Source: Aquibium carbonis (GTDB lineage: Bacteria > Pseudomonadota > Alphaproteobacteria > Rhizobiales > Rhizobiaceae). From it: DNA of 64,000 nucleotides. This document shows, piece by piece, positions 19,834 to 59,372 of this stretch (its first letter is position 1; every line of letters begins with the position of its first letter). The DNA lies in assembly GCF_003970795.1 (NCBI RefSeq), contig NZ_RWKW01000051.1:1-64000 (forward strand). Direction: 5' to 3'. A program made the translations under genes and the position numbers. The notes under the pieces were generated by a model that saw only the letters and a list, made by a program, of their open reading frames with translations, was not told the DNA's origin and searched no databases.

Positions 19834-19874
19834 ATCCTTGCAAATTTAAAGCCAGCCTTTAAATTTGCAAGGAT
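19834..19874. terminator. AT-rich perfect 18-bp hairpin at the end of the operon, possible terminator
   Basis: ATCCTTGCAAATTTAAAG (19834-19851) and its exact reverse complement (19857-19874) are separated by a five-base loop, CCAGC. It begins 33 bases after the Rid stop. There is no T-run after the stem, but A/T-rich symmetric stems can act in both directions. Its low GC content is strikingly unlike the surroundings, so an operator or a mobile repeat is an alternative. Confidence 0.45.
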
Positions 19875-20042
19875 AGAGACACGGACGCCGCTGCCGGGGA
19901 CGAGCAGAAGGACATGTTCGTATCGGCGGCTCCGTCGCAGTGTCCGGTGGATCGAGACAACGAAGTCCCGCCTCGTTCTGGCCCAACATCCGTTCACATG
20001 CACAGGCTTGCGGCACCGTGCGGGCTTTGCCACACACGCGCG

Positions 20043-38887: not shown

Positions 38888-38964
38888 TGGCGCGAGTGAC
38901 GGGGCTCGAACCCGCGACCTCCGGCGTGACAGGCCGGCACTCTAACCGACTGAGCTACACCCGC
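38888..38964 (-). tRNA. tRNA-Asp: tRNA-Asp (anticodon GTC)
   Basis: A 77-base cloverleaf on the minus strand with encoded CCA. The acceptor stem GCGGGTG pairs with CACTCGC (one G-U). The D arm is GCTCAGTCGGTTAGAGT, the anticodon loop CTGTCAC between CCGGC and GCCGG, and the T arm GCGGGTTCGAGCCCCGT. Confidence 0.96.
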
Positions 38965-39254: not shown

Positions 39255-39330
<76 letters not shown>

Positions 39331-43244: not shown

Positions 43245-44420
43245 TTAGCTTCCGATCGCCTCGAGATAGCGGCCGGGAACGAACCCGGTGATGTCATCGT
43301 GACTAATCTCGCACCACGACGCGTCGAGCACCCGTCTTTTCCCGGCGTCGGTCAGTTCTTCGTACCGGTAGGCTTCCATGTATGGCTCGCAGCCGAGCAC
43401 CAGGATGTCCGTGGCATCGCCCGGGATCGAGCCGACGCTGGCCGCATCGCGATTTCCAGCGCTCCGCGCCGCAAGCCGCTTTCCCGCGGGCACGCCGATC
43501 AGCCGGTAGGCGGGGCCGGATACGCCGACACCCGGCAGATCGTCCTCGTATGGCTCGTCCGCGGCGAGATCGTCCAGCGGCGTCGCGGCGCCGCCCACCC
43601 GTTCGAGAGTGACCGGGTCCGAGAACCCCTCGCCCGCAAGCGTTGCTTCCATACGCCCGGAAGCGAGGCCGGCAAGCCGGATCGCCAGCCTGTACTCACC
43701 GTCGAACTCGCTGCTGCGGATGAACACGACGAGTTCGTCGCGCGTGAAACGCAGCGTGCCGATCTCGCCCTCGTGCGCGACGTTGCCGCCCATGCTCAGC
43801 CACACCCCGAGGGTCCCGTGGACTTCGCCGAGCGACCGGCTGGAGCGTCTGATGTCGAGCGTGCCGTGCTGGCGACCGGACCCGATGAGGTTCCACATGC
43901 CGACGAGCTGGGAATCAACCGGACCGGCTCCGCTCATGCCGGCGTGGTCGATGAAGGTTTCGAAGGCGGCGGTCGGCGCCTCGTACATCGGGATCGGCCA
44001 GTAGACCGGTGCATCCACCGCTTGCGTCAGGCGCGGCCTCCGAGACGACGTCAGGCGCGCGTTCCAGTCGCCCTGTCGAAGGGTGGTGTCGTCGTTCCAG
44101 CCCCAGCGCCCGGTCCAGGCCCTGCCGTCCTTCGTCAGTTCGAACTGAAAAAGACCCCAGTCGCCGTCATGGCGATTGAACGCGCCGCGCAACGTTCTGC
44201 CGTCGGGCGAGACGCGTGCCTCGATCATGCCGGTCGTGTCATAATCGCCGTAGACACGATCATCGCCCTGCAGAAGACGAAGTTCGCCGAAATCGGTGTT
44301 CCAGCGTCCTTCCCACGGTCCTGCCGCGGAAGCCGCGGCAACCAGTGCGAGGATGAAAGTGGCCATCGCCAGCGCGGTCGCAGCGAGGCGGAAGGCAAAG
44401 CCGGTGAAATTGCGGATCAT
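43245..44420 (-). CDS. Secreted protein with GxW modules and a C-terminal SH3-like domain (envelope cluster)
   Basis: The 391-residue protein has a signal peptide (hydrophobic core about residues 10-30, cleavage after ASAA). Residues about 34-110 form a beta-rich unit with GPWEGRWNTDFGELRL and WTGRWGW; a second GMWNLIGSG unit begins near 175. GxW-type strands recall the first strand of lipocalin-like barrels. The last 85 residues (AYRLIGVPAGKRLAARSAG ... DDITGFVPGRYLEAIG) look like a bacterial SH3 domain. The ATG shares a base with the upstream gene's TGA, so it is the third gene of the operon read from 47706. Function unknown. Confidence 0.7.
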   Translation of the reverse strand: MIRNFTGFAFRLAATALAMATFILALVAAASAAGPWEGRWNTDFGELRLLQGDDRVYGDYDTTGMIEARVSPDGRTLRGAFNRHDGDWGLFQFELTKDGRAWTGRWGWNDDTTLRQGDWNARLTSSRRPRLTQAVDAPVYWPIPMYEAPTAAFETFIDHAGMSGAGPVDSQLVGMWNLIGSGRQHGTLDIRRSSRSLGEVHGTLGVWLSMGGNVAHEGEIGTLRFTRDELVVFIRSSEFDGEYRLAIRLAGLASGRMEATLAGEGFSDPVTLERVGGAATPLDDLAADEPYEDDLPGVGVSGPAYRLIGVPAGKRLAARSAGNRDAASVGSIPGDATDILVLGCEPYMEAYRYEELTDAGKRRVLDASWCEISHDDITGFVPGRYLEAIGS

Positions 44421-47164
44421 CACGGTCGCCCTGCCCGTTCCAGCCCCGGCCCGCCATCGGGCCGCGTCAATATGTGGTCGAGCCAATGGCGACCGTCAGG
44501 CGCGGGCAGATCGCCGGCGAAGGCCGCACGGGGGTCGCGGCACTGCTGCATCGAAAAGCAGTCCCCCGAGACGCACAGCTCGATCATGTCGCCCGGCTTC
44601 GAGGCAAGTTGGATCGGCGCCGGGACGGGCGCGCCGTCGGGATACGCGCCCTGCCTGGCGTCGCACGCGGCGACCTGCGCGGTTCCGCGGCACATCATGT
44701 GCATGGAGGCAACGGGCGGGGTCGTCGTGCCCTCCCGCGTCTCCGCCGAAATGTTCTCGCGGAACCCCTGGGCGAAGCCGCCCGCGTAGAGGACGAGGCC
44801 GTTGTAGTAGCAAGCGTCGAGGAGATCGTCGCCCTGCTTCGGTTCTCCGCTGGAACCAAGGCGCCCATACAGTCCGGCGATTGCGCCGAAATCGCCGCCT
44901 GGCTCGGGTGCCGGGGACGGCGGCCTTGCCTCGACCGCCCTGGACCCCAGGTATTCGCCGCTGTCCGAGTAGCTCAGTTCGGGGCCTCCGTCCGCGCGTG
45001 ACATGATGTGGTCGATCGCCCTTCGGCCATCGGGCAGCGTTTCGGTAGCCGACATCTCGCCACCCTGCCGCACGCAGGCATAGAGCATGCCTTCCTGGTT
45101 GCCGCGGGTTCGGTTGACGAGACGGACATGGCCGTCGGCAGCCGGCGTGACGGAGAACTCCCTTGTCTGGACGCTGTCGGGCGCTTCGGGTTGCCACATC
45201 CGGCAGCTTGCGCCCCCATCGATCGCCTTACACTGGCCGATGATGCTGGTTCGGTAGGGAATGCCGGTTGCGTCTGCGACGGGCGAACGGACCTTCGATT
45301 GAACGTAGCCGTCGGGGTAGGCGACGAATGGCGACATCGCGCATATGGCGACCGCCTCGCTGATGTCGGCACCGTTCGCAAGGTCGAAACCGGCACGCTC
45401 GACCAGGCCGTAGATGCCAGGCGGAAGCGGCGCGGATGTTCCCGTATCCTCGTTGGCGTAGGGGTTGGGCTGGCCGTCTATCGACACCTCGTCGGACCCC
45501 GGTTGCAAGCCGGCAGAGAACTCCACTTTCTCGACGATGCAGGCGTTGCGGCCATGCTCCGTGCCGCCAAAGCCGAGGCATCCGGTTCGGCCTCCATCGG
45601 ACATCCTGGCAATGTCGGCGTCACTCAGACGCTGACCTTCCGTCGGGCTGAGCGTGATCTCCTCGCCGGGGCGGGCGACGGTCACGACGAGCTGGGCGCG
45701 CTTGCCGCCGCTGCCCTCGTGTCCCGTTTCCAGCCGCCACGAGCCGACCGGCAGGTACCAGGGCAGTTTCTCGTTGTTCATCACATCCCGGCCCGAAGCG
45801 AAGAACGCGGAGCCGGCCGGCTTGTCGGACGCGCGCGTGTAGGGGCGCGCGGCGGGAAACCCGCCTGCGTCCCGGAACTCGACCCAGACCCGGGCAAGCT
45901 CGAAATCGAAATCGATCTCCTTGGTCTCGCCCGGCGCGATGCTGATCAGCTTCTCGCGGGTGATCGACCGCGCGAAGGTGCCCCGGAGCACGTAGTCGCC
46001 CGGGCCGATCGCTATGTCGAGGTCTGCCCGATAGGCAAAGCCGATCCTGGCGCCCTCGTCGGCAACGCCGCCGGAAACGGGCACCAGCTCGTAGACGCCA
46101 TAGCCGGTGCCCCTCTTGTTTGCCGTGCGCACACCCTTGCCGTGCTCGATCCGCTGGCCCGCATGAACCAGCGTGTTGACCTTGAGCCGCGCGGCGATGG
46201 CCCGGTCGACGACCAGAGTGTCGCCTCCTTCGGGCACCTCGATCTCGAAGCGTGCGCGCAAGGTGGCGCGGTCCTTTTCGCGGATGACTATCACATCGTA
46301 GACGCCGGGATCGAACATGCCTTCGGCAGTGTAGTCACGCTCGTGCCTCCAGCCGAGCCATTCGTCATATGCGGCCTCGCCGCGCGGCTCGATCACGATG
46401 TGAAGCTCGTTCACCTGAAGCTTCGGTCCGTCGGCCGCGTCTCGAAAGGTGAACTCGACGCGGCGCCTTGCCGGCGGGGCCGGCTCCTCCTCCACGAAGT
46501 CCTCCTCCTCTTCGACGAAGTCGTTTTCGTCCGCCATGATCGTGTCGCGCAACGCATCGACGAGCTGGTCGGCATCGCCGGCGGGGACGTAGCGTCCGCC
46601 GGTGTTTTCGGCGAGGCATGCCACCTGCCGCCCCTCGTCGCCCGTCAGGCCGAAGCCGACCACATGAGCGGTGAAGTCGATGCCGGCGGCTTCCAGCTCA
46701 CGCCCGAGCGCGCATGGGTCGGCGTCGCAGGTCTCGATCCCGTCGGTGATCAGCACCACGGTTGCCGCGCGTTCCGTATAGAGCATCTCCTCGGCCGCCT
46801 TGCGCACGGCATCCGAAAGCGGCGTCATGCCACGCGGGCTGATGCGGTTGGCCGCGTCGATCATGCGCGGCACCGTCTGGCCGGCCGGTCCCATCGGCAC
46901 CAGCGTTTCGATGTCGGAGCACTGGCCGCGCACACGATGGCCGTAGGCGATCATGCCGATGTTCATGCTCGGGGAGACCTCGGACAGCACGGAGGACAGT
47001 GTCTCGCGCGCGATATCGATCTTGGTGCGGCCGTCTATCTGGCCCCACATCGAACCGGATCCGTCGAGCACGATCAGCGTATCGGGCGCTGTCTGGGCGA
47101 TGGCGGGCGACACCGTGAAGGACGCAGCCACAAAGCCGAGGGCGGTGACGAGATGGCGGATCAT
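44420..47164 (-). CDS. Secreted von Willebrand factor A domain protein (envelope cluster)
   Basis: The 914-residue protein has a signal peptide (cleavage after AIAQ, about residue 24) and then a VWA domain (about residues 27-212) with a complete MIDAS: DGSGS (Asp34, Ser36, Ser38), Thr114 in GMTPL and Asp141 in ITDG. An acidic stretch (EEEEDFVEEE, about 218-227) links to beta-rich, carboxypeptidase-regulatory-like repeats (about 235-500) and a Cys-rich C-terminus. The C-terminal half repeats the motif PDGRxxxDHIxxRxDGGPxL twice, at 711-730 and 889-908. A metal-dependent adhesion or scaffold role in the periplasm or on the surface is inferred. It overlaps both neighbours (ATGA junctions). Confidence 0.82.
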   Translation of the reverse strand: MIRHLVTALGFVAASFTVSPAIAQTAPDTLIVLDGSGSMWGQIDGRTKIDIARETLSSVLSEVSPSMNIGMIAYGHRVRGQCSDIETLVPMGPAGQTVPRMIDAANRISPRGMTPLSDAVRKAAEEMLYTERAATVVLITDGIETCDADPCALGRELEAAGIDFTAHVVGFGLTGDEGRQVACLAENTGGRYVPAGDADQLVDALRDTIMADENDFVEEEEDFVEEEPAPPARRRVEFTFRDAADGPKLQVNELHIVIEPRGEAAYDEWLGWRHERDYTAEGMFDPGVYDVIVIREKDRATLRARFEIEVPEGGDTLVVDRAIAARLKVNTLVHAGQRIEHGKGVRTANKRGTGYGVYELVPVSGGVADEGARIGFAYRADLDIAIGPGDYVLRGTFARSITREKLISIAPGETKEIDFDFELARVWVEFRDAGGFPAARPYTRASDKPAGSAFFASGRDVMNNEKLPWYLPVGSWRLETGHEGSGGKRAQLVVTVARPGEEITLSPTEGQRLSDADIARMSDGGRTGCLGFGGTEHGRNACIVEKVEFSAGLQPGSDEVSIDGQPNPYANEDTGTSAPLPPGIYGLVERAGFDLANGADISEAVAICAMSPFVAYPDGYVQSKVRSPVADATGIPYRTSIIGQCKAIDGGASCRMWQPEAPDSVQTREFSVTPAADGHVRLVNRTRGNQEGMLYACVRQGGEMSATETLPDGRRAIDHIMSRADGGPELSYSDSGEYLGSRAVEARPPSPAPEPGGDFGAIAGLYGRLGSSGEPKQGDDLLDACYYNGLVLYAGGFAQGFRENISAETREGTTTPPVASMHMMCRGTAQVAACDARQGAYPDGAPVPAPIQLASKPGDMIELCVSGDCFSMQQCRDPRAAFAGDLPAPDGRHWLDHILTRPDGGPGLERAGRP

Positions 47165-47706
47165 TGGCCGAACGCCTTCCGGTAGCTGTCGAGCGGAAAC
47201 GTCGCGAACAATGCCTTGGTGGCCGGGTAGTCGATGGAGCCACCGCCCGAGAAATCCGTCGCGGTGAACTGGACGGCGGCGCTGCCGATCAGGCAGTTGA
47301 TCATGTTCTGGTCGACGACGCCGACGCATTCGGCGTCAGCCAGAACTTCCGTGTCGGCTGCCCACCCGCCCGGCAGATTTCCGGAGGCGGCCATCGAAAG
47401 AATGTTGGCGATCAACCCGGTTGTGGCTTCGCGCTCGCTCACGAGCAGCGAGATCGTGACATTCGGGTAATCGGGCAACGCGATGTCGAACGTCGCCTGG
47501 AAGGGTCGTCCGGCATCGTTCGACGCCACCTCCGCCCGCAAGTTGAACGGATTGGTGATCGCTTCAAGGATTGCGGCGGGCACGAGATCGCGGAGCGCAA
47601 GCTCCGGGGCTTTCGCAATCGGATCGGTCAGCTGGGCGTCCTCGGCAAGCGCCGGTGCATGCAGGAAGACCACAGCCGAGAAGAGAGGGAACAATCGAAA
47701 TTTCAT
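47161..47706 (-). CDS. Small secreted protein, first gene of the VWA operon
   Basis: The 181-residue protein has a signal peptide (MKFRLFPLFSAVVFLHAPALA). The mature part has two Cys in ADAECVGVVDQNMINCLIG (probable disulfide) and no recognised domain. Two ATGs stand side by side at 47709 and 47706; the second has better spacing from GAGG. An 18-bp palindrome lies about 52 bases upstream. It overlaps the VWA gene by 4 bases. Confidence 0.7.
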   Translation of the reverse strand: MKFRLFPLFSAVVFLHAPALAEDAQLTDPIAKAPELALRDLVPAAILEAITNPFNLRAEVASNDAGRPFQATFDIALPDYPNVTISLLVSEREATTGLIANILSMAASGNLPGGWAADTEVLADAECVGVVDQNMINCLIGSAAVQFTATDFSGGGSIDYPATKALFATFPLDSYRKAFGQ

Positions 47707-47758
47707 CATGAGCCTCGCAGGGTTTGGCGCCACGCTAGCGGCCGCTCCGTCCCCTTGC

Positions 47759-47776
47759 GTCACTCATATGAGTGAC
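47759..47776. promoter_or_regulatory. Cluster palindrome 1 (operator candidate)
   Basis: GTCACTCATATGAGTGAC is a perfect 18-bp palindrome, 20 bp with its flanking C/G. It lies 52 bases before the three-gene VWA operon. Three related sites occur at 52724, 55335 and 56079. Confidence 0.8.
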
Positions 47777-47955
47777 GACGAAGCGGGGTTGGGAGGGAAA
47801 AGCTCTCGGGGCAACGTTCCTGGAGACCATCGCCATGATGAGAGGGACCGCTGCCGGATGCCGAGCTCCAGGAGCACGGCTTCGGCGGTCGACCGGTTCC
47901 GGGGCATTCTCCTAGACCGATGGCGGCATCATCGCCGGTACGACGGCGAGCCGTC

Positions 47956-50900
47956 TCATCGCGCTTCGCCCGACAGCCGCATCCGGAACGGCCCGGCGAC
48001 GCCGCCCGTTCGGTGGTTCCAGACGAGGAAGCTGCCGGCCGGCACGACGTATCCGGTGACGGCGGCGACAATATCGGGGGTCGTCACGACCGCGCGCCAG
48101 GGATGGGTCTCGGTCGGCTCGGGCTCGCGCAGCATCGCGCCGACCGTCCGGCCGGCGATCTGGCGGTCGTCCGCGCCGAGGCCCACGCCGTCGAGACGCC
48201 GGTCGAGGATGACGGACACGAACTCGTCCTCGCCATGCGCGAAACTCGGGTCGCCCATGGTCGCGAAGGCCATTTCCGTCGCGACCTCAACCAAGACGCA
48301 ATCGCGGCCCGAAAGGATCGAACCGGGCGGCACGAAATGGCGCATCAGCTCGCGCATCGCCGCCCAGGCACGGAAACTCTCATCGCGCGTCAGGCGACGG
48401 CGGTCCATGCAGGCAGTCCGGTCCCCCGGCCGCGCGTGGTCGCCGCCGAGAAGCCCTTCGGGCGGCGTGACGAAGGCGACGACGCCGGCAAGTTCGCCGA
48501 TCTGCTGAAGCTCGCCCGTCATCGGCACCGCGTAGGTGTAGGGCGCGCCGGACAGCCAGTTGGCCAGCTCGATCTCCGGCTCGGGCCGCGCGTCATAGGC
48601 GACGGCCCGGTCGGCGCGGGCCGGCGACGGGACAGGCTCGGCCGGCAGAAAGTCCGAGGCGAAGGAGAAGCCGCCGTCCGGCAAATCGGGGTCCAGCCCG
48701 AGATCGCGCAGCTCCGCCAGCATGCGGGCGCAGTCGGCCGGCGAGGGATCGCGGGTGGAGCCCATGCCAAAACCCTGGTCGATCGCGTAGCCGCGCAGGA
48801 ACTGAACCATCTCCGTGCCGCCTTTCGCCAGGAGCTTCGAAGTGAACGCGGTGTAGGCGCGGCAGGCACGGCTTTCGGCCGGATCGCGACCGGGCCGGCG
48901 AAGTTGACCATCGACATCGATCAGCACCCGGACGACGCCCCAGCCGCCATCGTCAAGCGCCGGATCGACGCCGTAGTCCCACAGATGGAGCATCGCGTCG
49001 TAGCAGAGGTCCGGACGCCGCTGCCCCGAAAGCGAGAGGCCGACCTCAACGAACAGGCCGTCGATGAACCCGCCCATGCCCATGCCGCCCGAGAATGTCA
49101 GCGTGGCCGCGAAGGCGTCGAGCGTGGCGCACGGGTCCGGCGCGTCCGGCGCGGACCAGTTGCCGCCATTGTCGACGAAGGTGTTGAAGACGTTCACCGA
49201 ATTGTCGACCAGGTAGACATTGCCCTGCCTTGGGCCGCCACCCGTTTGGCCCGACTGGCCGTTGTTGCGCGTGTCGGGCACGAGCACGATGGCGTTGAGC
49301 CGGTCGAGGGCGCGCTGGCACTTGGCCTCGGTCTGCTCGCCGCCGAAGGCAAGCCCGACATCGGCATAGATCGAGCGAATGGCCTGGACCAGTTCCGATC
49401 CGGCCTCTGCATTCATCTCGGCGGTGCGGCGCTCGAGCGACTCGCAGACGGCGTTCGGTTCCGGCTTCGGCGGCACGGGGATATTGACCGGATCGGTGTT
49501 GGCGACGTCCCGGTTGTCCGCTGCGGGCTTCGGATCGGGGCCAGGCACTGGGTCAGGCATGGGGCCAGAGCTCGTAGTGCGCGCTCCCAGCCAGATATCA
49601 TGCCCGGGACTGTGCGTGGGAAATCTCTCGATCTCGAGAAAGCGGTTCCCATCCCTGGACAGGAAAAGCATCCTCTCGGTTTCCAGAACGACGGCACCGG
49701 GGGGGGTGTAGGAATACGCTTTCGCCTCCCCGCCGACAAAGTCGCGGAACGACTGGCCCGCGAGTTCGGGAAACACGTCGGGGATCGTCTGATGACGGAC
49801 GGTGAAGTCGTCCGGGGCGTAGGCGCCGAGCACGCTGTCCAGCGTGCCGCGACCGACATCGACATGGCGTTCATCCGTGTTGACCACTTTGCCGGCCCGC
49901 ACGGGGCGCATCTCGATCCGGTCGCCGAAGACAGTCAGCCTGGCGACCAGGTCATCCATGACGCCAAAGGCCTTCCCGTAGCTCGCGACTTGTCTGTAAT
50001 TCCGGACCTTGAAGTCGCCGGTGCTCCCGGCCGCCTCCTGAGGCTTCGGATCCGGCGCGTCGGTCCTTGTCCGCTCGAAGGCCGCCACGACCACGTTTCT
50101 CGGCGGCTGCCCGATCGTGGCGAAATCCATCATGCTTCCGGCGAGCCGCGGTCCATCGGTGAACAGCAGCGCTCTGTCGCCCGCGACCAACAGCACGGTT
50201 TCATCGCCAAGAACATTCTGCTCGTCCACCCACCCCAGCCTCGTGCCGCCGCCGCCGGCCAGAAGCGCTTCCGGCGTGCCGATCCACTCCATGAGGGAAG
50301 CCGCGCCCGTTCCCGGCATCGGTTTTTCGAGATGGGAGCGGAACTGTTCGATATCGGCATTGAGCGTCGCGAAGGTCGAAACGAAAGGTCCGTTCGTCTC
50401 GACAGCCGAATACTGGCCGCTCTGGCCGGACATCTCGAAGCCGGACAGGGTCGGCCTGAGCGCAGCTGCGGTCTGCCAGATGCCCATCGCCGGCAGTGAT
50501 TCATGCGGCTGGCCGACCATCCGCCACGTGCCGACGACCGGACCCGCAGCCACCGGATCCTGCGGCTTCGGGCCCGCGCTGCCGCTGCCCATGCCGCCGT
50601 CATCCTTTGCCGGATCGAGGCCGGCCTCGGCCATGTCGTCGAGCATCTGCTTGCACTGGTCATCGAGGGGGTGGCCGGACGCGCCGATCTTCTGGTTCGC
50701 GAGGATCGCGTCGAGCCTGGCCGTCAGCGCAGGCAGGTTCTTCTGCCGGCGCAACGAATCGTCCCTGGCCCACGCCTCGCAAGCGCCGGGCGCGGGATCG
50801 TCCGGCCGCGCGACATAGGCCCGGTCGTCCAGGGAAGGCGCCAGCAAGGTCTCGCTGGCGCCGAGTTTCTCGAACAGATAGGTGTTGTCGGGCTGCGCGC

Positions 50901-52644
50901 CGAAGGCTGCGGCGGCCGTCATCTGCACCATCAGAGTTCCGGTCCCGGACGGGCGCAGGCGCATGCGCAGGTCGGAATAGGCCGGAAAATCCTTGCCGAA
51001 GGCCCGCAGGCCCTCCAGCGCATCATAGGGCCACCGGTCGTCGCCCGTCGGGTCGAGCCGAACCGCATTCGCGAGGGGACCGTCGTCCCGGCCGAGTTCG
51101 CAAAGCGCCTGGGTGCGCGGGAACGTCTCGCAGGTGCCGTCCGTGTTCCAGACCTTGATCGCGCCCGAGATCGGACCGAGATCATCGCCGGCAAGCTCCA
51201 GCAGGATGACATTGCCGCGCCGGTTCGGTCCCGATGACCAGACCCATGATCCTGCAAGCGGGGACTCCACGGCTGGTTTCGCCTCGGCGCCGTCGAACGA
51301 AGGCACCGGGCGAAGCGGCGTCGCGCGCCGCACCAGGCGGATCGGCTGTCCGTCGAAGACGTCGTCGGTCGGGTGCGCCGCCGACAGTGACAGCTCGTCC
51401 ACGGCGACCCGCCTGATGCGCATGTTGGCGTCGATGCCGAAGTCCTTCGTCTTGACGCTCTCGCCGCGCCCGGCGACGAAACCTGCCCGGCCGTCCCACG
51501 ACCCCTCGAAACTCAACGCGAAGGGCTGGCGCTTCTCGACGACCTCGTGGAACCAGATGAAGGCGCGGGACGGATTGCGAGGAAAGCTCCCCTTGGCCTG
51601 ATCGTCGAAGGCGTGGAAGGTCGCCGTCGCCTCGCCCTCCCCGTTCATCTCGATGTCGGCTTCGATGACCAGCGGCCCGACGTTTCCGATCCACTGGCCG
51701 TTCATCATGTCGGGCGCGCTTCGCGTCGGCGCGACCTGGCGGAGGGGCCGGTCGGCCCGCGCGAAGGTGACGTAGACCGGCGGCACGCCGCCCAGCCCCG
51801 CCCCGGTGAAGACGATCTGCAGGTTCCCGGACGGCGTCGGCTTCAACTCGGCGCCGGCGCCGATGCGGTCGGGGAACTCGCCTTCGCGCGTCAGCACCGT
51901 CGTCCAGAATGCGTGCGGCTGGTCGGGCTGGCGGGCCGCGGTGGCGCTCATCGAGAACGCACGCTCCGAGCCGGCGATCCGGTGCCATTCGTCGAGAGGC
52001 CGGCTTGACGGGACAGGCAGGGCCCGGTCGGCAAAGGCCGACACGGTCACCGCCACCCGGTCGTCATCGACCGCCTCGATGCGGGTTTCGAGCGTCAGCC
52101 CGCCATCGGCGCCGATCCAGTTGCCAACGAGCGCCTGCGGAGCGGTGCGCACGTCGCGCTTGCGCGCGACCAGGGTCATGGTGTCCGTCGCACCATCAAA
52201 CCGCTCCAGCGTGATCAGAAGCTTGGCGAGCGGAGCCGCCGTTCCCTCTTCCAACGTCAACTCAAGCGTCGCCCCGGAATTGATGTCCGCGCCGGTGAGG
52301 ACCGGCTGACCGCGCGCCGTGCTCATATTGGCGTCAAGCGCAAACGGCCCGTCCTTGCTCAGCCGCTCGCAGACATAGAGATGGAACCGGTCGCCCGGTC
52401 TGGCTCGCCCGCAGTCCGCGTCGAACGTGCCCGTGGGCGTGATCTCTCCCGATAGCGTCCGCATCCCGCCAGGGGAGCCCGACTGAACCTGAACGTCGAA
52501 GGTGAAGGTGAAGCCCGGGCCGTTGAAGGTCTGCCAGCGGCCAAGCATTTCGGCTGCGGCCGGCCCGTTCATGGCCACGAGCGACAGGGAAAGGGCCAGG
52601 ATGAGCGCGGCGGCTCTCGTCAGGCACGCAATCGAAGCAAGCAT
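47956..52644 (-). CDS. Giant secreted protein with GxW modules and a four-fold Cys repeat (envelope cluster)
   Basis: The 1562-residue protein has a signal peptide (hydrophobic residues 10-25, cleavage after PAAA, about 31). Five GxW-type beta modules begin near residues 35, 174, 316, 465 and 705. A roughly 60-residue unit occurs four times: Cys622/Cys664, Cys1067/Cys1109, Cys1172/Cys1214 and Cys1261/Cys1305. The first Cys is 42 (once 44) residues before the second, and GLDPxxDDGG follows 11 residues after the second Cys in three copies. A Pro/Asp-rich linker (about 1028-1064) separates the halves. No family is recognised. The ATG at 52644 lies behind GGAGGACC; the promoter palindrome is 79 bases upstream. 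Confidence 0.8.
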   Translation of the reverse strand: MLASIACLTRAAALILALSLSLVAMNGPAAAEMLGRWQTFNGPGFTFTFDVQVQSGSPGGMRTLSGEITPTGTFDADCGRARPGDRFHLYVCERLSKDGPFALDANMSTARGQPVLTGADINSGATLELTLEEGTAAPLAKLLITLERFDGATDTMTLVARKRDVRTAPQALVGNWIGADGGLTLETRIEAVDDDRVAVTVSAFADRALPVPSSRPLDEWHRIAGSERAFSMSATAARQPDQPHAFWTTVLTREGEFPDRIGAGAELKPTPSGNLQIVFTGAGLGGVPPVYVTFARADRPLRQVAPTRSAPDMMNGQWIGNVGPLVIEADIEMNGEGEATATFHAFDDQAKGSFPRNPSRAFIWFHEVVEKRQPFALSFEGSWDGRAGFVAGRGESVKTKDFGIDANMRIRRVAVDELSLSAAHPTDDVFDGQPIRLVRRATPLRPVPSFDGAEAKPAVESPLAGSWVWSSGPNRRGNVILLELAGDDLGPISGAIKVWNTDGTCETFPRTQALCELGRDDGPLANAVRLDPTGDDRWPYDALEGLRAFGKDFPAYSDLRMRLRPSGTGTLMVQMTAAAAFGAQPDNTYLFEKLGASETLLAPSLDDRAYVARPDDPAPGACEAWARDDSLRRQKNLPALTARLDAILANQKIGASGHPLDDQCKQMLDDMAEAGLDPAKDDGGMGSGSAGPKPQDPVAAGPVVGTWRMVGQPHESLPAMGIWQTAAALRPTLSGFEMSGQSGQYSAVETNGPFVSTFATLNADIEQFRSHLEKPMPGTGAASLMEWIGTPEALLAGGGGTRLGWVDEQNVLGDETVLLVAGDRALLFTDGPRLAGSMMDFATIGQPPRNVVVAAFERTRTDAPDPKPQEAAGSTGDFKVRNYRQVASYGKAFGVMDDLVARLTVFGDRIEMRPVRAGKVVNTDERHVDVGRGTLDSVLGAYAPDDFTVRHQTIPDVFPELAGQSFRDFVGGEAKAYSYTPPGAVVLETERMLFLSRDGNRFLEIERFPTHSPGHDIWLGARTTSSGPMPDPVPGPDPKPAADNRDVANTDPVNIPVPPKPEPNAVCESLERRTAEMNAEAGSELVQAIRSIYADVGLAFGGEQTEAKCQRALDRLNAIVLVPDTRNNGQSGQTGGGPRQGNVYLVDNSVNVFNTFVDNGGNWSAPDAPDPCATLDAFAATLTFSGGMGMGGFIDGLFVEVGLSLSGQRRPDLCYDAMLHLWDYGVDPALDDGGWGVVRVLIDVDGQLRRPGRDPAESRACRAYTAFTSKLLAKGGTEMVQFLRGYAIDQGFGMGSTRDPSPADCARMLAELRDLGLDPDLPDGGFSFASDFLPAEPVPSPARADRAVAYDARPEPEIELANWLSGAPYTYAVPMTGELQQIGELAGVVAFVTPPEGLLGGDHARPGDRTACMDRRRLTRDESFRAWAAMRELMRHFVPPGSILSGRDCVLVEVATEMAFATMGDPSFAHGEDEFVSVILDRRLDGVGLGADDRQIAGRTVGAMLREPEPTETHPWRAVVTTPDIVAAVTGYVVPAGSFLVWNHRTGGVAGPFRMRLSGEAR

Positions 52645-52723
52645 CGTCGGTCCTCCGGCAACAGGGAATCTCCGGCCTTGCCGGATCGTGAAACCCATGT
52701 CGCGCGATCGCCTGCCGCCGCGC

Positions 52724-52741
52724 GTCACTCAAATGAGTGAC
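52724..52741. promoter_or_regulatory. Cluster palindrome 2 (operator candidate, divergent promoter)
   Basis: GTCACTCAAATGAGTGAC matches palindrome 1 except at the central pair; symmetry extends three more bases each side (CGC/GCG). It stands between two divergent genes: the giant protein (start 79 bases away) and the lipoprotein (59 bases away). Confidence 0.8.
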
Positions 52742-52800
52742 GCGCGCAAGTCCCCCGAAAGGCCATGAAGGCGTCATGACACCAACCTGGGAGCGACATC

Positions 52801-53265
52801 ATGAAATCCTGGAAAAAGAAGGCGCTGGCCGTCGCGGGACTGCTCGGGCTCGCGCCCGCCATCGCGGCGTGCAGCGGAAGCGAAGCCGCCTCCGACCCGA
52901 ACAGCCTGACGATCAAGGTTTCGACCGAGCTGTCCGGCGCGGCTTGCCGCCCCGTCGCCGACTACTCGATCGGCAAGGATCACGCGCTGCGACTCGTGAA
53001 CTATCGGGTCACGATGACCGGCCCCGGCGAACAGGACACGACGCGGATCCCGACCGGCGAGGTGCTGCACCTGTCCGGCGCTGTGAAGAAGGCGCGCGGC
53101 ATCTCGCTCCACAACCACGACGCCAAATGCGCCGAGATGACCGTCGTTTGGGACCAGTTCGAGTGCGAGAACGAGGACCGGCAGAAAATGGCGTGTCCGT
53201 CGATCGTGCTGACCGGCGGCAGCGAGTTCAAGAGCGTGGAGGTCGTGCCGCCTCAACCGGAATGA
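52801..53265 (+). CDS. Predicted lipoprotein (envelope cluster)
   Basis: This 154-residue protein has a lipoprotein signal: a basic N-terminus MKSWKKK, a hydrophobic core and a lipobox AIAAC with Cys24. The mature part has three further Cys pairs or singles (CRPV, KCAE, ECEN, ACPS) and is beta-rich (TIKVSTELSGAACRPV, LRLVNYRVTMTG). No family is recognised. It is the only plus-strand structural gene of the cluster and shares the palindrome with the giant protein. The RBS is GGGAGCGAC before ATG 52801. Confidence 0.75.
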   Translation: MKSWKKKALAVAGLLGLAPAIAACSGSEAASDPNSLTIKVSTELSGAACRPVADYSIGKDHALRLVNYRVTMTGPGEQDTTRIPTGEVLHLSGAVKKARGISLHNHDAKCAEMTVVWDQFECENEDRQKMACPSIVLTGGSEFKSVEVVPPQPE

Positions 53266-53284
53266 CCGGAGGGCCGCAGCGCCG

Positions 53285-53854
53285 TCAAAGCTCGATCCGG
53301 GGCCGCTCGTAGGTGACGGCACGCTCTGCCTCAGTCATCTCGAACGGCTTTGCCTGTCGGAAACGATGGAGCGCAGCGACGATGTTGCCGGGAAACGTCA
53401 CGATGCGTGCGTTCAGGTTCTGGACATTTCCGTTGTAGAGCCGCCGGGATGCAGCGATCTGATCTTCCGTTTCCTCAAGCTGCTTCTGGAACGTCGCGAC
53501 GTTTGCCGTGGCGGTGATGTCCGGATTGTCCTCGGCATAGGCGATCAGCCCCCGGAGCGAACCGGCGAGCGCCGCTTCGGCCTGCGCCATCGTCTCGGGG
53601 TCGTGGCCCGCCATGGCCTTCACGGCTTCCATCCGCGCATCGAGGATGCGGTCGAAGATCGCGTTCTCGTGCCTGAGCGCCGATTTCACCGCCGTCACCA
53701 GGCCGGGCACCAAGTCATGACGCCGCTTGAGCTGCACCTCGATGCCTGCCCAGCCCTGGTCGACCTGCGTCACGGCGCGACCGAGGCCGTTGTGGACAAG
53801 GATGTAGGCGCCGAGCAGCACGACGAGCAGCAGGATCAGGACGAGACCGGTCAA
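53285..53854 (-). CDS. LemA family protein
   Basis: The 189-residue protein has one N-terminal transmembrane helix (about residues 3-22) followed by the LemA coiled four-helix body. The signature VDQGWAGIEVQLKRRHDLVPGLVTAVK (about residues 36-62) matches the family, as do YNGNVQNLNARIVTFPGNIVA and FRQAKPF near the end. LemA proteins are membrane anchored with a helical domain facing outward; their role is unclear, but they often accompany DUF3137 proteins, as here. It is the last gene of the operon 55275-53285. Confidence 0.9.
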   Translation of the reverse strand: MTGLVLILLLVVLLGAYILVHNGLGRAVTQVDQGWAGIEVQLKRRHDLVPGLVTAVKSALRHENAIFDRILDARMEAVKAMAGHDPETMAQAEAALAGSLRGLIAYAEDNPDITATANVATFQKQLEETEDQIAASRRLYNGNVQNLNARIVTFPGNIVAALHRFRQAKPFEMTEAERAVTYERPRIEL

Positions 53855-53863
53855 ATCGACCTC

Positions 53864-54835
53864 CTATTCGACGAAACGCTTGAACGACACGGCCGCTTCG
53901 GCGAACTGCTCGACCAGCGCACCGAAACGGGCGGCGACGACCTCATCCTCGTCGCTCATGATGCGGTCATTGCCGGCGAAGTAGACGGTCGCTCCATCGA
54001 TTATGAGTTGCGCCTGATAGCGGTCGTGCAGGTCGATCAGCATCGACTGCGTCGCCGGCGTCAGAGCGCGCAGCAGCGCCAACTGGCCGCCGTCGCCGAC
54101 ACGATCATCCGCGATCGAGATGTTGAACCGGTCGTTGAACTCGACGGATTCCGTCTTGATGTCGCGCCATCCGTCCCGGTCGAAGGCTTCGGCCAGAAGG
54201 TGCGCGCGGATGCCGGTGTCGCGCTCGAGATCGTAGGCGACGACCATGTTGAACAGCTTGCCCTGAAGGCCGCGGCCGCCGAAGCCGTCCTTCCTGATGG
54301 TCTCCACGGCGATCGTCGCGTCGACCTCGTACTGCTGGAGGCCCAGCCAGAACGGTATTTTGGCTTCCGTGTCGCCCCAGTACATCGCCTGGAGCTGCAA
54401 GGGGATGAGCTGGCCGGCGCGCGGCCTGCACAGGTCCGGGATCGTCTGGTAGACGCGTGCGGCGAAAGGATCGACCGGTCTTCGGCGACGCGTGCCCTTC
54501 CGGGGTCTCATCTGCGGTTCGATCAGCCGGAAGCCCCAATCGTTCTTCTCAGCGAGCCGGAAGAACAGCCGGTCACGCCTGGCCGCCGTCCTGGCGAGCA
54601 AGTCGCCGCCGAACAGGCCGACGACGGAAACCACGAGAGCCGGAACGCCGAACCATGCCGCCGGCCGCCAGAAGAACGCGATCACGATCGCGATGGAGGC
54701 GGCGATGGCCAGCAGGCCGAACACCGTGTTGACCCAGCCGGGCAGCTTGACGCCCTCGCCCGGCTCGGCGACATGCTGTCTCTCGAAGGGAAGCGTTCCG
54801 GCGAACGGATCCCAGACCTTGCGACCGACCGCCAT
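53864..54835 (-). CDS. DUF3137 domain membrane protein
   Basis: The 323-residue protein has two adjacent transmembrane helices near residues 36-80 (VNTVFGLLAIAASIAIVIAFFW and GVPALVVSVVGLFGGDLL) and then a large soluble domain (about 90-323). That domain contains DLCRPRAGQLIPLQLQAMYWG and LQGKLFNMVVAYDLERDTG, resembling the DUF3137 family commonly paired with LemA. The start at 54835 lies 2 bases after the preceding gene's stop. Probably forms a membrane complex with LemA (inference). Confidence 0.75.
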   Translation of the reverse strand: MAVGRKVWDPFAGTLPFERQHVAEPGEGVKLPGWVNTVFGLLAIAASIAIVIAFFWRPAAWFGVPALVVSVVGLFGGDLLARTAARRDRLFFRLAEKNDWGFRLIEPQMRPRKGTRRRRPVDPFAARVYQTIPDLCRPRAGQLIPLQLQAMYWGDTEAKIPFWLGLQQYEVDATIAVETIRKDGFGGRGLQGKLFNMVVAYDLERDTGIRAHLLAEAFDRDGWRDIKTESVEFNDRFNISIADDRVGDGGQLALLRALTPATQSMLIDLHDRYQAQLIIDGATVYFAGNDRIMSDEDEVVAARFGALVEQFAEAAVSFKRFVE

Positions 54836-54837
54836 GA

Positions 54838-55275
54838 TCACCGCGCCTCGAAGACGAGGACGACTTTGCGATAGCCGCCGACCGAGCAGCCGCTCCGCCG
54901 GACGGGCGCGCGCCCTTCCATCGTGATGACACCTGAATCGTCCATCCATCCAACGACACCGAAGGACGCCGGCTGACATCCCCGCCGGAAGACATGCGCC
55001 CGGCCATCGATCCTGGCGCCTCCCGCTAGGTCGTGGATCCGGCCGCGGAACAGCACGGTGCCCGGGCGAACCCCCTGATCGGCGATCCCGCTGCGCGGCC
55101 GATCGTATTCGATCACCATCCGGCCGTCGCAGACGTGCACGTCCATCGGCGAGCCGTTGTGATCGTAGCTGGCGCTGTCGCAAGCGGCATGGGCGGCGGA
55201 GCCCGACGCCAGCAATGCCAGCATGCACGCAACGAACAGCCCGAAAACGCCCGCGCGGTTCTTCCAGCCCATCAT
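54838..55275 (-). CDS. Small secreted Cys-rich protein, first gene of the LemA operon
   Basis: The 145-residue protein has a signal peptide (cleavage after AAHA, about residue 30). The mature part has four Cys (CDSASYD, HVCDG, RRGCQP, RSGCSV), probably two disulfides, and is mostly beta: DVHVCDGRMVIEYDRPR, GTVLFRGRI, GVITMEGRAP. I know similar small exported proteins in rhizobia but no function. The ATG at 55275 lies six bases behind GGAGG; the palindrome is 59 bases upstream. Confidence 0.7.
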   Translation of the reverse strand: MMGWKNRAGVFGLFVACMLALLASGSAAHAACDSASYDHNGSPMDVHVCDGRMVIEYDRPRSGIADQGVRPGTVLFRGRIHDLAGGARIDGRAHVFRRGCQPASFGVVGWMDDSGVITMEGRAPVRRSGCSVGGYRKVVLVFEAR

Positions 55276-55334
55276 CACCCACCTCCATCGCCCACCGGTT
55301 GGGGCCAATCTGCGTTCGGTGCGACGGGTCCTGC

Positions 55335-55352
55335 GTCACACATTTGAGTGAC
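55335..55352. promoter_or_regulatory. Cluster palindrome 3 (operator candidate)
   Basis: GTCACACATTTGAGTGAC matches the other cluster sites. It stands 59 bases before the LemA operon and just past the end of the gene at 55363-55986. Confidence 0.75.
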
Positions 55353-55362
55353 AGGCACGGTT

Positions 55363-55986
55363 CTACTGTTCCGAGAAGGCCTGGAGGACCGCCTCGTAGT
55401 GGATGAGTCGCGGCTGCTCGTCAGAGCCGAACTCCTGGAACTGGCCGGAATAGGACAGTTTGAGGGCGCTGCGCGAAAGCTGCTCGACGCCGAAATGCGG
55501 CGATCCGACCGGATAGTAGCCGACGCCCTCAACCTCGACGCTCCCGGGCATCGGGCCGGTGATGTAGTAGTTGGTCTCGTCGTTCTGTGGCTCGTCGCCA
55601 CGCGGGAGAAGCATGCCGGTCGTGCTGAACACCGGCTGCCCGCCAAGGGCCGACGCGCTGAGCCCGGTCAGCGCATACTTGCAGCCGGCGCCTGCGATCA
55701 TCGCGGCCATTCCGATCATCCGGTCCTGAGACAAGGAATAGCTGACGTCGCCGGCGACCTGGATCGTCAGCCGACCCGGCACCTGAAAGAGCTCGATGCC
55801 CGGCGCGGACATCACGTGCTTCACGGCCATGCCTCGCTCGAAGAAGGTGACGCAGGCACGGACGGGCGAAGCCTGCTCCGGCCTGGCCGGGGATGCGGGA
55901 AGCGCGGCGAAGGCGCTCGCCAGCGCGATCAGGGGGAGTGCCTTCTTCCGGCGCGCCGTTCCGGGCGCCTGCCTGCAACTGGACAT
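55363..55986 (-). CDS. Secreted protein of unknown function (envelope cluster)
   Basis: The 207-residue protein has a signal peptide with a basic N-terminus (GTARRKKALPLIALASAFAALPASPA). The mature domain is beta-rich with two Cys (RACVTF, AGCKYA). Segments such as LFQVPGRLTIQVAGDVSYSLSQDRMIGMAAMIAGAGCKY show no known motif. The start at 55986 is provisional; an alternative start was not evident. It is divergent from the LuxR-type regulator with a palindrome between them. Confidence 0.65.
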   Translation of the reverse strand: MSSCRQAPGTARRKKALPLIALASAFAALPASPARPEQASPVRACVTFFERGMAVKHVMSAPGIELFQVPGRLTIQVAGDVSYSLSQDRMIGMAAMIAGAGCKYALTGLSASALGGQPVFSTTGMLLPRGDEPQNDETNYYITGPMPGSVEVEGVGYYPVGSPHFGVEQLSRSALKLSYSGQFQEFGSDEQPRLIHYEAVLQAFSEQ

Positions 55987-56078
55987 TCCGTTCCCGTTCC
56001 TTTTCGATCCGGACCTCGATGGACGACGCGACCCGATCCCGTCGCGGGAACAGTTACGCGCACAACCCGACGTCCTGC

Positions 56079-56096
56079 GTCACCCATTTGGGGGAC
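56079..56096. promoter_or_regulatory. Cluster palindrome 4 (operator candidate, regulator promoter)
   Basis: GTCACCCATTTGGGGGAC is the most diverged copy. It lies between the divergent secreted-protein gene (92 bases) and the LuxR-type regulator gene (83 bases), as expected for autoregulation. Confidence 0.7.
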
Positions 56097-56179
56097 CTGT
56101 CATCTCCCGATAAAAAAGCCCGTTCATTTGCAGTTCAGCTTCGCGCGTCAGATAGTATCGTCAAGACTTGGGGAGAACG

Positions 56180-58000
56180 ATGCGAACGCTTGAAGCATCA
56201 TCGCGGTATCTGGTCGGCAGCGGCAACGAATTGCTGCTGTTCCGCTCGTGGCGTGCCGGTTCGCGCGCCCCCGTCGCCTATATCGGCCACAGCCAGCCGA
56301 CGCATTCCGGCAACGTGGTCGCGCTCGCCGAATCGCTTTGCCGCCTCGGCTTGAATGTCCATGCGGGCGACCTGCGCGGCCACGGGGCCTCGGTGTCCGC
56401 GCGCCAGCCGCTCGGGCATCTCGACCGCGACGACGGATGGGAACGCCTGATCGGGGACATGCGCCAGTTCCTCTCGGTCTCCTTCGAAGGCGTGCCGTGG
56501 GAAGACCGGCTGATCGTGGCGCCCAACATCAGCGGTCTCCTGACCCTCGAACTGCTCAAGACCGAGCCCGACCTCGCCCGCAACATCGTGCTGATATCGC
56601 CTCCCCCGAACCAGAGGGCGCTCTGGATGCTCGCGCGGTCCTTCGCCAAGGCGCGCTCGCTGATCCGCGATCCCGACCTGCCGGACGAGCATACGCTGCA
56701 TCACCTCTACACCTTCCTCGGAGCACAGCTCGAGGACCGAAAGCACCTGGCCGACGTCGTATCCGCCGATCGCGGCATCGTCGATTCGCTCATCAGAGAC
56801 CCGGCTGCATGGCCGACGCCGACGCTCTCGTACTGGCTCTCGATCTTCAGAGGGTTTCAGCAGGCGTGGGACTGGCCGCGGGCGGACCGCATCCGTGACG
56901 GCACGCGCATCCTGCTGATGTATGGCGCGGAAGACCCGATGATGGGGAATGGCGGCTTCGTGACACCGATGCGCGACTGGTTTCGCGCGCGCGGCGCGGG
57001 CGATGTGCAGTCCTATCGTGTCGAAGGCGCGCGGTCGGCCGTTTTCCTCGACGAGCGGCGCTTGAACGTGTCCGAGGCGATCATGGCGTGGTTCCGGGAC
57101 GGCGCCTTGCCGAAGCAGATCGGCGAAAGGGAAACCGCCAATCTGGAAGACATTTCATCCCGCCTCCTGTCCAAACTCGGCAATCCGGATCTCGAGGCAG
57201 AGCTCAGCGCCGATGCGCTGGTCGAGCTTTGCTACAACGCGATCCAGGACGAAGAGCGCTGGACGGAGATGATCTACCGTATCGCACTCGCCATCGCGCG
57301 CAGCGAGCGCGGCAATGCCCAGCAGATCGAGATGCTGGTTACGACCCTGATGCCGCACTGGGATCGCGCCTACGAGCTCAACCGCCAGATCATGACCAAC
57401 GCCGCGCTCGGCGTGGTGCTGCAGGACGTCATCGAACGTTTCGGTATCGGGATCGGGCTGATGACGAACGATTTCGGCATCGTCCACTGCAACGCGGCCT
57501 TCAGGGAGGCGCTCGGCCGCTGCGCGCCCGGCGGCCATGTCGGCGACGACATCCAGTCCGTCGAGGGCGCGCTGCGCGCCATCGCCTCGCCGCAGTTCAG
57601 GAGCGACGTCGAGCGGGGGCGCGGCGAGACGGTGCTCGTCGTCGACGGCGAGCCCGTCGGCATCCATTTCCGTCCGCAGACATTGCGCCAGACCGGGCTG
57701 CTCCGCGGCGGACCGTCCGGGGTCCTCGTCCTGCGCAAGCCGGACACCGATCCCGGCGAACGCGACGACTCGCGCACCGCGCTGCTGCAGCTGGCCTACG
57801 GGCTGACACAGCAGGAGGCCAATGTCGCGCTTCGCATCGCGGCGGGCCGCTCGCCCGAAGAGATCTGCACGGATCTGAGCCTTTCGATCCACACCGTCCG
57901 GACGCATCTCAAGCGCAGCTACGAAAAGGTCGGCGTGCAGGGGCAGACGGAGCTCGGGACCCGCATCATGGCCGGCCCCGTCGGCTGGCTCAGCGCATAA
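56180..58000 (+). CDS. LuxR-type regulator with degenerate alpha/beta-hydrolase and PAS-like domains
   Basis: The 606-residue protein has three parts. Residues about 10-310 are an alpha/beta-hydrolase fold of the S33 (monoglyceride lipase-like) group, shown by DLRGHGAS at 64-71 and YGAEDP with Asp252. The nucleophile elbow reads VAPNISG with Asn116 where Ser is expected, and the His position reads EGARS with Ser286, so it should be catalytically dead and may instead bind a ligand. Residues about 415-520 resemble a PAS domain (FGIGIGLMTNDFGIVHCNAAF). Residues about 535-600 are a LuxR/GerE helix-turn-helix (LTQQEANVALRIAAGRSPEE ... SIHTVRTHLKRSYEKV). The ATG at 56180 follows GGGGAGA. It is the likely regulator of the four cluster palindromes. 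Confidence 0.88.
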   Translation: MRTLEASSRYLVGSGNELLLFRSWRAGSRAPVAYIGHSQPTHSGNVVALAESLCRLGLNVHAGDLRGHGASVSARQPLGHLDRDDGWERLIGDMRQFLSVSFEGVPWEDRLIVAPNISGLLTLELLKTEPDLARNIVLISPPPNQRALWMLARSFAKARSLIRDPDLPDEHTLHHLYTFLGAQLEDRKHLADVVSADRGIVDSLIRDPAAWPTPTLSYWLSIFRGFQQAWDWPRADRIRDGTRILLMYGAEDPMMGNGGFVTPMRDWFRARGAGDVQSYRVEGARSAVFLDERRLNVSEAIMAWFRDGALPKQIGERETANLEDISSRLLSKLGNPDLEAELSADALVELCYNAIQDEERWTEMIYRIALAIARSERGNAQQIEMLVTTLMPHWDRAYELNRQIMTNAALGVVLQDVIERFGIGIGLMTNDFGIVHCNAAFREALGRCAPGGHVGDDIQSVEGALRAIASPQFRSDVERGRGETVLVVDGEPVGIHFRPQTLRQTGLLRGGPSGVLVLRKPDTDPGERDDSRTALLQLAYGLTQQEANVALRIAAGRSPEEICTDLSLSIHTVRTHLKRSYEKVGVQGQTELGTRIMAGPVGWLSA

Positions 58001-58061: not shown

Positions 58062-59372
58062 ATGCCACAGTGCCAACCGTGCGGGGTGAGCGTTCTGTCG
58101 GGCTTTGTTCTTGCTGCGGTGATGGCCTTTCCCATCGCGATCGCCATCTTCCGGTCGCAAAGGATGGATGTGCCTGCCTTCGTGTTCAACGCCGGACGCA
58201 ACTCTCTCTCGCAGATCACGGCAAGCGTGATCTGCGGCAACATCGGCATCGGCACCTTCGTCGCGATTTTCCTGTTCACGCGGGCGAGCCTGACGATCGG
58301 AATCTCGATCGCCATCGCCTACACGATGGGGTTGGTCGTCTGCGCGATCCTCGCCCGGCGCATTCACGAACTCTCGTCGCGACACGACACCTTCGGACTG
58401 GTCGATCTCATCGTCGTGACGCATGGGGTGCGCCATCCGCTGCTGATCTGGATGCCCGTGGCGGTCGTCTTCGTCCTGCGCATCATGGTCCAGATTGCTG
58501 CGCTGGCCCTTATCCTGACCGAGGCTTTCGGCCTTTCGCCGACGGCCTCGCTCGCCGTGGCGACCATCTCGTCCGGCAGCTACGTCGTCATCGGAGGATA
58601 CAGGGCGGCGACGGAGACGGATATGTTCCACGCCTCGGTCATCCTCTCGATCCTGCTTTTCGTGGCCGCGACGATGCCCGCCGCCGGCGGGGAGATCGAC
58701 CTTCTGGATCTCGGGCCATACACGCCCGTCCTGCTCGTCGGCATCTTCCTGTTTCTGCCATTCAGCGCCGTGCTCGGCATCGACAACTGGCAGCGGATCG
58801 CAACCGCCCGGACCGCAGAGGTCGCCACAAAGGCCTATGGTATCTGTGCGGTGGTCTGCGGCTTCTGCTATGCGACGATCGTCGCGGTGGCGGCGCTGCC
58901 CGGCGGCGGGACGGACGTCCTGGCGAGCTTCCGGGCACTGATGCCGCCCGGTGCGCCGTGGCTGGCCGATCTCCTCTTCGCCTGCGCGATCATATCCACG
59001 ATCGACACCTTCATGGTGCCGCTGACCACCACTTTCGCGAGGCTCGGGCTGAACTTGAGTCAGCTCCGATGGCTGGTCGCGGGCCTTTTTGGCCTGGTGG
59101 CGGTGTTGACCGGCATGATGGGCGACCTGTTGTCGAACATCATCGCCGCCTTCAACAGCCTCGCCGTGTTTCTGCCTGCCGTCTTCGGCGCGCTGGTGCT
59201 GCGCGCCCCCAAGCCCCAAGCCGCGATCTCATCCATGGTCATCGGCGTGGCTGCCAGCCTGCTGCTCACGACGATCGATGTGAGCTCCTCGGCTCCGATC
59301 GGCTTTGCCGTCAGCGTTGCGACCTACTGGCTGGTCCATCAGGCCCGCCTCCTTCGGCGGGCGACCGACTGA
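58062..59372 (+). CDS. Sodium:solute symporter (SSS)-like permease
   Basis: The 436-residue protein has about eleven hydrophobic helices. The conserved region near residues 45-75 (LSQITASVICGNIGIGTFVAIF), FGLVDLIVVTHGVRHP and SGSYVVIGGYRAATETDMFHA (about 182-202, resembling the SSS sodium-site loop) support the family. It is shorter than typical SSS members (about 500 residues). The first ATG (58062) has no good ribosome-binding site; the GTG nine codons later is an alternative. Substrate unknown. It lies 61 bases after the regulator and may or may not belong to that cluster. Confidence 0.65.
   Translation: MPQCQPCGVSVLSGFVLAAVMAFPIAIAIFRSQRMDVPAFVFNAGRNSLSQITASVICGNIGIGTFVAIFLFTRASLTIGISIAIAYTMGLVVCAILARRIHELSSRHDTFGLVDLIVVTHGVRHPLLIWMPVAVVFVLRIMVQIAALALILTEAFGLSPTASLAVATISSGSYVVIGGYRAATETDMFHASVILSILLFVAATMPAAGGEIDLLDLGPYTPVLLVGIFLFLPFSAVLGIDNWQRIATARTAEVATKAYGICAVVCGFCYATIVAVAALPGGGTDVLASFRALMPPGAPWLADLLFACAIISTIDTFMVPLTTTFARLGLNLSQLRWLVAGLFGLVAVLTGMMGDLLSNIIAAFNSLAVFLPAVFGALVLRAPKPQAAISSMVIGVAASLLLTTIDVSSSAPIGFAVSVATYWLVHQARLLRRATD

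Follow-up and report, generated by a model that had tools for sequence, protein, structure and literature searches.

What does a run of genes for mostly secreted proteins beside a single regulator build, and what switches it on? The question is raised by a gene island at positions 43,245 to 58,000 of a 64,000-nucleotide (nt) stretch of Aquibium carbonis DNA (assembly GCF_003970795.1, contig NZ_RWKW01000051.1, positions 1 to 64,000), which we call the window. A first-pass annotation, made from the letters alone, had described nine structural genes for envelope-associated proteins next to one regulator and one operator type; the nine open reading frames (ORFs) and the regulator are indeed present at or near where it had placed them (Table 1), the giant protein with its full length included. 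The system is nevertheless larger than the span first described, since an SSS-type transporter gene beyond the regulator also belongs to it. Judged from its sequence, the island holds a genuine envelope gene system, conserved though patchy in its distribution, under a single LuxR-type regulator of pseudo-hydrolase kind. Each part either falls in a known family or resembles one; for their combination and for the type of sensor, no description was found in the literature searched.

The case for a single system begins with recurrence in a number of alphaproteobacteria. Scanning genome contigs with the regulator gave loci in Nitratireductor sp. B36, Loktanella sp. D2R18 and Pseudooceanicola marinus, each adjoining a VWA relative, and a plasmid search with it gave one more on a Roseibium aggregatum plasmid (1 of 72,556 records). 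A regulator profile matched 2 of 345, 9 of 326 and 5 of 199 genomes, each count including one known genome, which leaves 13 new ones. Altogether 19 loci were annotated with profiles (the window, L006, L007, L008, L012, L095, L120+L121 and L122-L133), neighbouring genes playing no part in their choice; L095, met first by its operator, is also a regulator match. Relatives of the VWA, LemA, DUF3137-like, SSS, C391 and S144 genes recur around these 19 regulators and are not scattered, as the first-pass annotation had conceded they might prove to be. VWA genes are present in 17 loci, DUF3137-like in 14, LemA in 13 and C391 and S144 in 7 each. SSS genes are found in 10, L007 having a remnant besides, and a domain termed lectin-like here, with no convincing Pfam match, also in 10. 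The DUF3137-like genes accompany LemA in all 13 of its loci and occur also in L012.

Two layouts can be distinguished. Type A (L006, L007, L012, L124 and L125) consists of VWA, C391 and S144, an order kept in all five loci, although in L124 and L125 a further ORF separates C391 from VWA; type B (L008, L095, L122, L123 and L126-L131) consists of a lectin-like protein, a VWA protein with a lectin-like tail, LemA and the DUF3137-like protein, with SSS in 6 of 10. The window and L132 mix both layouts, and their regulators pair as sisters when a tree is drawn (support 0.991); L132 has a relative of S181 directly before its VWA gene (E 8e-45). The co-occurrence first expected of the giant protein, the VWA protein and the regulator holds for the latter two but is weak for the giant, whose sole relative found is the 552-residue protein in L132 (E 1e-26). 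A role of the giant as conserved core is not supported, as it matched 1 of 151 genomes, its own, and none of the plasmids, and neither the lipoprotein nor S207 has a relative in the 19 loci.

The regulator ends in a LuxR-type helix-turn-helix (HTH) domain (PF00196, GerE, 33.2 bits; cut-off 23.5), its N-terminal part is a Hydrolase_4 domain in Pfam (57.1 bits), and the linker gives a weak PAS_8 match (15.3 bits; cut-off 21.8). When the structural model was used in a PDB fold search, monoglyceride lipases came out on top (6eic, E 6e-12, TM score 0.67 by target length). An active S33 hydrolase requires a Ser-Asp-His triad, which these regulators do not have: at positions assigned by motif and not by residue-level structure alignment, the catalytic Ser is replaced by Ile in 18 of 19 (by Met in L120+L121), in a nucleophile elbow that reads PNI or similar, and the catalytic His by Arg in all 19, while the Asp is kept in 18. 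The pseudo-hydrolase suspected at first pass is thus borne out. The motifs PPPNQ (exact in 16 of 19) and RGHG (19 of 19) are conserved, which argues that the pocket is kept; its probable ligand is a small molecule, either hydrophobic or anionic. No autoinducer-binding domain was found in the regulator in Pfam at E up to 1 (weak matches filtered).

The operator is a palindrome, GTCACTCATWTGAGTGAC, standing at four sites in the window, the last of them degenerate. These sites give seven strand-hits, where 100 shuffles averaged 0.03 and none exceeded 2, and a search of the 5.34-Mb own genome with up to 3 mismatches returned only the same four, the reversed-pattern control giving 0; within its own genome the operator type noticed beside the regulator was thus found at this locus only. 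Of the 18 other loci, 17 have variants, and 15 of these 17 have one that heads a profile-annotated gene, against 0 to 0.4 chance matches per locus in mononucleotide shuffles. The window motif was found again in L006, L007, L008 and L012, while in L095 and L122-L133 its third base is variable, and in L127 and L128 the sites are close to the beginning of an ORF whose product is of a different secreted type. Those in L007 come from motif and weight-matrix scans, the matrix having been built with them, and not from the later criterion used on L095 and L122-L133. When the Nitratireductor genome was searched with the operator alone, another full locus with its own regulator, L095, came to light. The third base of the half-site also follows the recognition helix of the regulator, being A in 29 of 30 halves where the helix reads THLK and in 4 of 54 where it reads GHLK.

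The DNA past the operator also shows a preferred spacing. Forty-four oriented box-to-gene rows were drawn from 32 of 43 sites, divergent sites being counted on both sides, and in 17 of them a TA starts exactly 22 nt past the 18-mer, compared with a mean of 0.95 over all offsets, no other of which reaches 5. With four near-copy loci dropped the TA is at 22 nt in 11 of 34 rows, against 0.65. If the TA is read as the start of a -10 element, the centre of the box lies at -42.5. It is around this position that the lux box and class II LuxR-type activators are placed, and the spacing would suit the geometry of a class II activator.

We favour, as a reasonably probable account, a ligand-sensing pseudo-hydrolase activator of LuxR type that switches on an envelope or surface module. 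The regulator would be a one-component activator with an alpha/beta-hydrolase fold, related to monoglyceride lipase, as its sensor. With ligand bound it would probably dimerise through the helical linker, and its HTH would bind the palindrome TCACYCAWWTGRGTGA, as conservation, location and covariation suggest. A box near -42.5 at promoters such as that of S181-VWA-C391 may then, from its geometry, recruit RNA polymerase in class II fashion. The secreted VWA, SH3-like and repeat proteins, together with the LemA/DUF3137-like membrane pair, would probably build or remodel a metal-dependent adhesive surface layer or complex, while import or co-sensing of the ligand is the probable task of the neighbouring SSS-type transporter. 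No settled function is known to us for LemA and DUF3137-like proteins, which would gain a candidate regulator, operator and partners. The system would also give bacteria a counterpart of those hormone receptors that are derived from hydrolase folds, and in one as compact as this, with one palindrome, one regulator and a local regulon, the account is directly testable. A bolder version can be offered only tentatively, as we think it somewhat unlikely: a new bacterial signalling class in which a dead lipase-like receptor is set on a LuxR HTH, its invariant Arg capturing an anionic or lipid-like ligand brought by a dedicated SSS, and a new VWA/LemA surface machine is built, receptors of two domain orders having arisen beside one VWA family.

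Several observations weigh against the activator account. Among the window rows S181 alone has the TA exactly at 22 nt; S207 is off by one, and the giant, lipoprotein, S144 and regulator rows (four of six) are without it. L120+L121 has a regulator and an SSS gene, and a search of its 29 kb found no VWA gene, LemA or operator; L133 has no VWA gene in 19.9 kb. The type A loci have neither LemA nor an intact SSS in the DNA examined, so these two genes are not obligate. Forty regions that surround VWA relatives elsewhere in the class, some of them short contigs, were examined: a window-type regulator occurs in none, and four yield a match to the profile of the permuted type described below; the VWA family therefore exists also without the regulator, which mostly implies a VWA gene (17 of 19) while the reverse does not hold (0 of 40). 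Some loci are near copies (L095/L122, L124/L125 and L127/L128), and hence the independent cases number 16 or fewer. Operator matches with up to two mismatches total 29 in the genomes or records of four relatives (7, 12, 8 and 2; reversed control 3, 0, 0 and 0), and seven of these fall at loci already known; 11 of the other 22 were inspected, of which two marked L095, seven lay inside unrelated ORFs and two (L099, L102) lay at or near gaps between unrelated genes. Such matches occur elsewhere in three of the relatives' genomes, and single ones in the Nitratireductor genome are weak, as the reversed control reaches 3 against 7. The agreement of helix and half-site has an exception in L133 (THLK with TCCC halves) and the change is close to a single event on the regulator tree, so that the covariation is support and not proof. 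The mean predicted local distance difference test score (pLDDT) is 67.5 for the regulator model and 47.3 for that of the VWA protein.

The alternatives partly overlap the activator account, and the weights given to them do not sum to one. It is quite possible, though short of probable, that the island is a co-regulated envelope regulon of proteins that act independently and form no single assembly. Its content is modular, type A going without LemA and type B without C391 and S144, and the giant, S207 and the lipoprotein are rare or unique; yet the VWA gene is near-constant and its order with C391 and S144 is kept in five loci. That the regulator is instead a repressor, or a dual regulator, with the palindrome keeping promoters off until ligand releases it, we consider unlikely: the cross-locus TA peak sets the box upstream of the -10 element and not over it, even if just two of six window rows have the TA 22 nt away or no more than one nt off, and operator 4, between S207 and the regulator, would permit autoregulation. 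That the island is a mobile accessory one, serving in conflict with phages or with other cells, is more doubtful still. The patchiness would suit it, the regulator being found at a strict limit (E up to 1e-60) in 1 of 385 genomes of the class, its own, with SSS absent from all three and the giant from all four congeners searched, and one copy of the system on a Roseibium plasmid, but no toxin, nuclease, transposase or integrase family occurs among the ten island proteins (Pfam, NCBIfam), and a defence island gains no support from PADLOC, which, run for known defence systems, gave only weak partial matches. Chance neighbourhood of unrelated genes deserves practically no credence, for common as the single families are (VWA-domain relatives in 35 of the 385 genomes), it is refuted by recurrence across 19 loci and by the shared operator.

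The structural genes had been arranged in four units; nine genes there are, but the four operators flank six units, namely S181-VWA-C391, the giant, the lipoprotein, S144-DUF3137-like-LemA, S207, and the regulator, perhaps with SSS. The first is a tight operon on the minus strand and the fourth a second operon (53285-55272), the remainder being single-gene units. The coupling by ATGA overlaps that had been reported is confined to one true case, S181/VWA (47161-47164); the VWA/C391 junction is TGATG (44418-44422) and the remaining two are gaps of 2 and 9 nt. Sec signals were rightly seen in nearly all products, seven of nine having a Sec-type N-terminus by eye, one with a lipobox, and LemA and the DUF3137-like protein have transmembrane stretches.

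The metal site of VWA914 (D34, S36, S38, T114 and D141) is invariant in all four rows compared. The model of this protein can be relied on for the VWA domain and part of the following beta region but not elsewhere, and is poor beyond about residue 430; a fold search returned VWA proteins, the SpaC pilus adhesin first, with poor superposition. The SH3_3 match of C391 (13.4 bits) is below the cut-off. Relatives of C391 occur in L006, L007, L012, L124, L125 and L132, and those of S144 in the same loci, twice in L012, where one copy is annotated as SH3 domain-containing. The giant has weak internal repeats (hhalign, single segments). LemA is a true family member (cut-off 26.2 bits). The membrane protein assigned to DUF3137 is a membrane protein, but its PF11335 score is below the cut-off of 26.1 bits and the name therefore denotes a resemblance; its relatives in L095 and L008 score 16 and 18.6 bits, and L095 has in addition a true DUF3137 protein (103.5 bits) beside its SSS gene. 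The window SSS, at 24.4 bits against a cut-off of 22.8 for PF00474, belongs to the SSF family and shares 46.5% identity with its L095 counterpart. The ten proteins include no secretion, pilus or toxin family (Pfam, NCBIfam), in agreement with the first impression.

Table 1. Features of the island and adjoining transporter gene, in window positions.
Feature	Position	Strand	Description
C391	43245..44420	-	Secreted; N-terminal domain of ~90 amino acids (aa); C-terminal part weakly SH3-like; last gene of VWA operon
VWA914	44420..47164	-	Secreted VWA protein; complete DxSxS...T...D metal site; Pfam VWA_2 38.6 bits
S181	47161..47706	-	Small secreted protein; first gene of VWA operon; ATGA overlap with VWA
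Operator 1	47759..47776	.	Perfect 18-bp palindrome; heads S181-VWA-C391; TAGCGT starts 22 nt past box
Giant	47956..52644	-	Secreted protein, 1562 aa; degenerate beta and helical repeats
Operator 2	52724..52741	.	Between giant (-) and lipoprotein (+)
Lipoprotein, 154 aa	52801..53265	+	Lipobox IAAC (by eye)
LemA	53285..53854	-	PF04011 144 bits
DUF3137-like membrane protein	53864..54835	-	PF11335 11.8 bits, below cut-off
S144	54838..55272	-	Small secreted protein
Operator 3	55335..55352	.	Heads S144-DUF3137-like-LemA
S207	55363..55986	-	Secreted protein
Operator 4	56079..56096	.	3 mismatches; between S207 and regulator
Regulator, 606 aa	56180..58000	+	Dead alpha/beta hydrolase; helical, weakly PAS-like linker; GerE (LuxR-type) HTH
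SSS-type transporter	58062..59372	+	61 nt after regulator, same strand; PF00474

How far is any of this familiar? LuxR-type quorum regulators and LuxR solos share with the window regulator the HTH and, as placed here, a box near -42.5. Monoglyceride lipases and other S33 hydrolases (Rv0183, 6eic) have the same fold as the sensor, whereas both Ser and His are replaced in the 19 window-type regulators. The plant hormone receptors GID1 and D14/KAI2 sense their ligands with an alpha/beta-hydrolase fold, D14 keeping its triad, and here such a fold is fused to a bacterial HTH. In CbrA an SSS-type transporter domain is tied to a regulator as part of the sensor; in the island too an SSS accompanies a regulator, but as a separate protein and with no kinase domain. 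MamQ of magnetosomes has a LemA domain in common with the island, but the window LemA scores 63.7 bits in the NCBIfam MamQ family, where the cut-off is 250, and the ten proteins include no other magnetosome family (NCBIfam). LuxR402 of Novosphingobium is reported to be linked to the cell envelope, its mutant showing a change in, among others, a protein of the LemA family (PMC10413115); the same paper gives LuxR402 an acyl-homoserine lactone-binding domain, by which it was ruled out as a family member, the window regulator having a dead alpha/beta hydrolase in its place. For LemA together with DUF3137, a single paper came up (PMC10434189). Among the matches listed from the open-licence PMC literature, in which 'alpha/beta' is not searchable as a term, no description of the island's gene combination and sensor type was found.

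Some other genes of the related loci, and the surroundings of the island, may be recorded. A secreted protein with a repeated FFPGDSF-like motif (L008, 7552-8220), with relatives in L123, L127, L128 and L130, coincides in several loci with an operator-like site or lies close to one, and in L006 an ORF of 1941 aa (14908-20733), autotransporter-like by eye, follows an operator-headed pair (11929-14569). Genes for tRNA-Asp (38888-38964) and tRNA-Val (39255-39330) lie a few kb before the island in the window. Of the flanking proteins, TRAP-P finds a match at 50% identity in one of four congeners and an amidase at 40% in another one of the four (E up to 1e-60 for both), and, each matching a single congener, they show no empty insertion site.

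Regulators of reversed domain order also adjoin VWA genes, in L013 (4917-6686, a Peteryoungia plasmid) and L014 (6566-8323, a Pseudosulfitobacter plasmid). In these a PAS-like and an HTH-like stretch, recognised by eye, are followed by the alpha/beta hydrolase. They resemble the window regulator in joining a hydrolase and an HTH-like stretch beside a VWA gene and match its profile weakly, but differ in their domain order, in having no GerE domain in Pfam and in keeping the Ser elbow (GLS[DN]G), although the His seems lost. No strong window-type operator was found in L013-L015. Further ORFs beside VWA genes are known by a match to the permuted profile only (L068 6879-8489, L015 7079-8707, L047 10089-11717, L048 10377-12005 and L049 7489-9117), L047 and L015, a contig and a plasmid that agree in length, being probably the same molecule. 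In L014, TniB family and Mu transposase-like genes (3748-6394) directly adjoin the permuted regulator and the VWA gene, which suggests carriage by a transposon.

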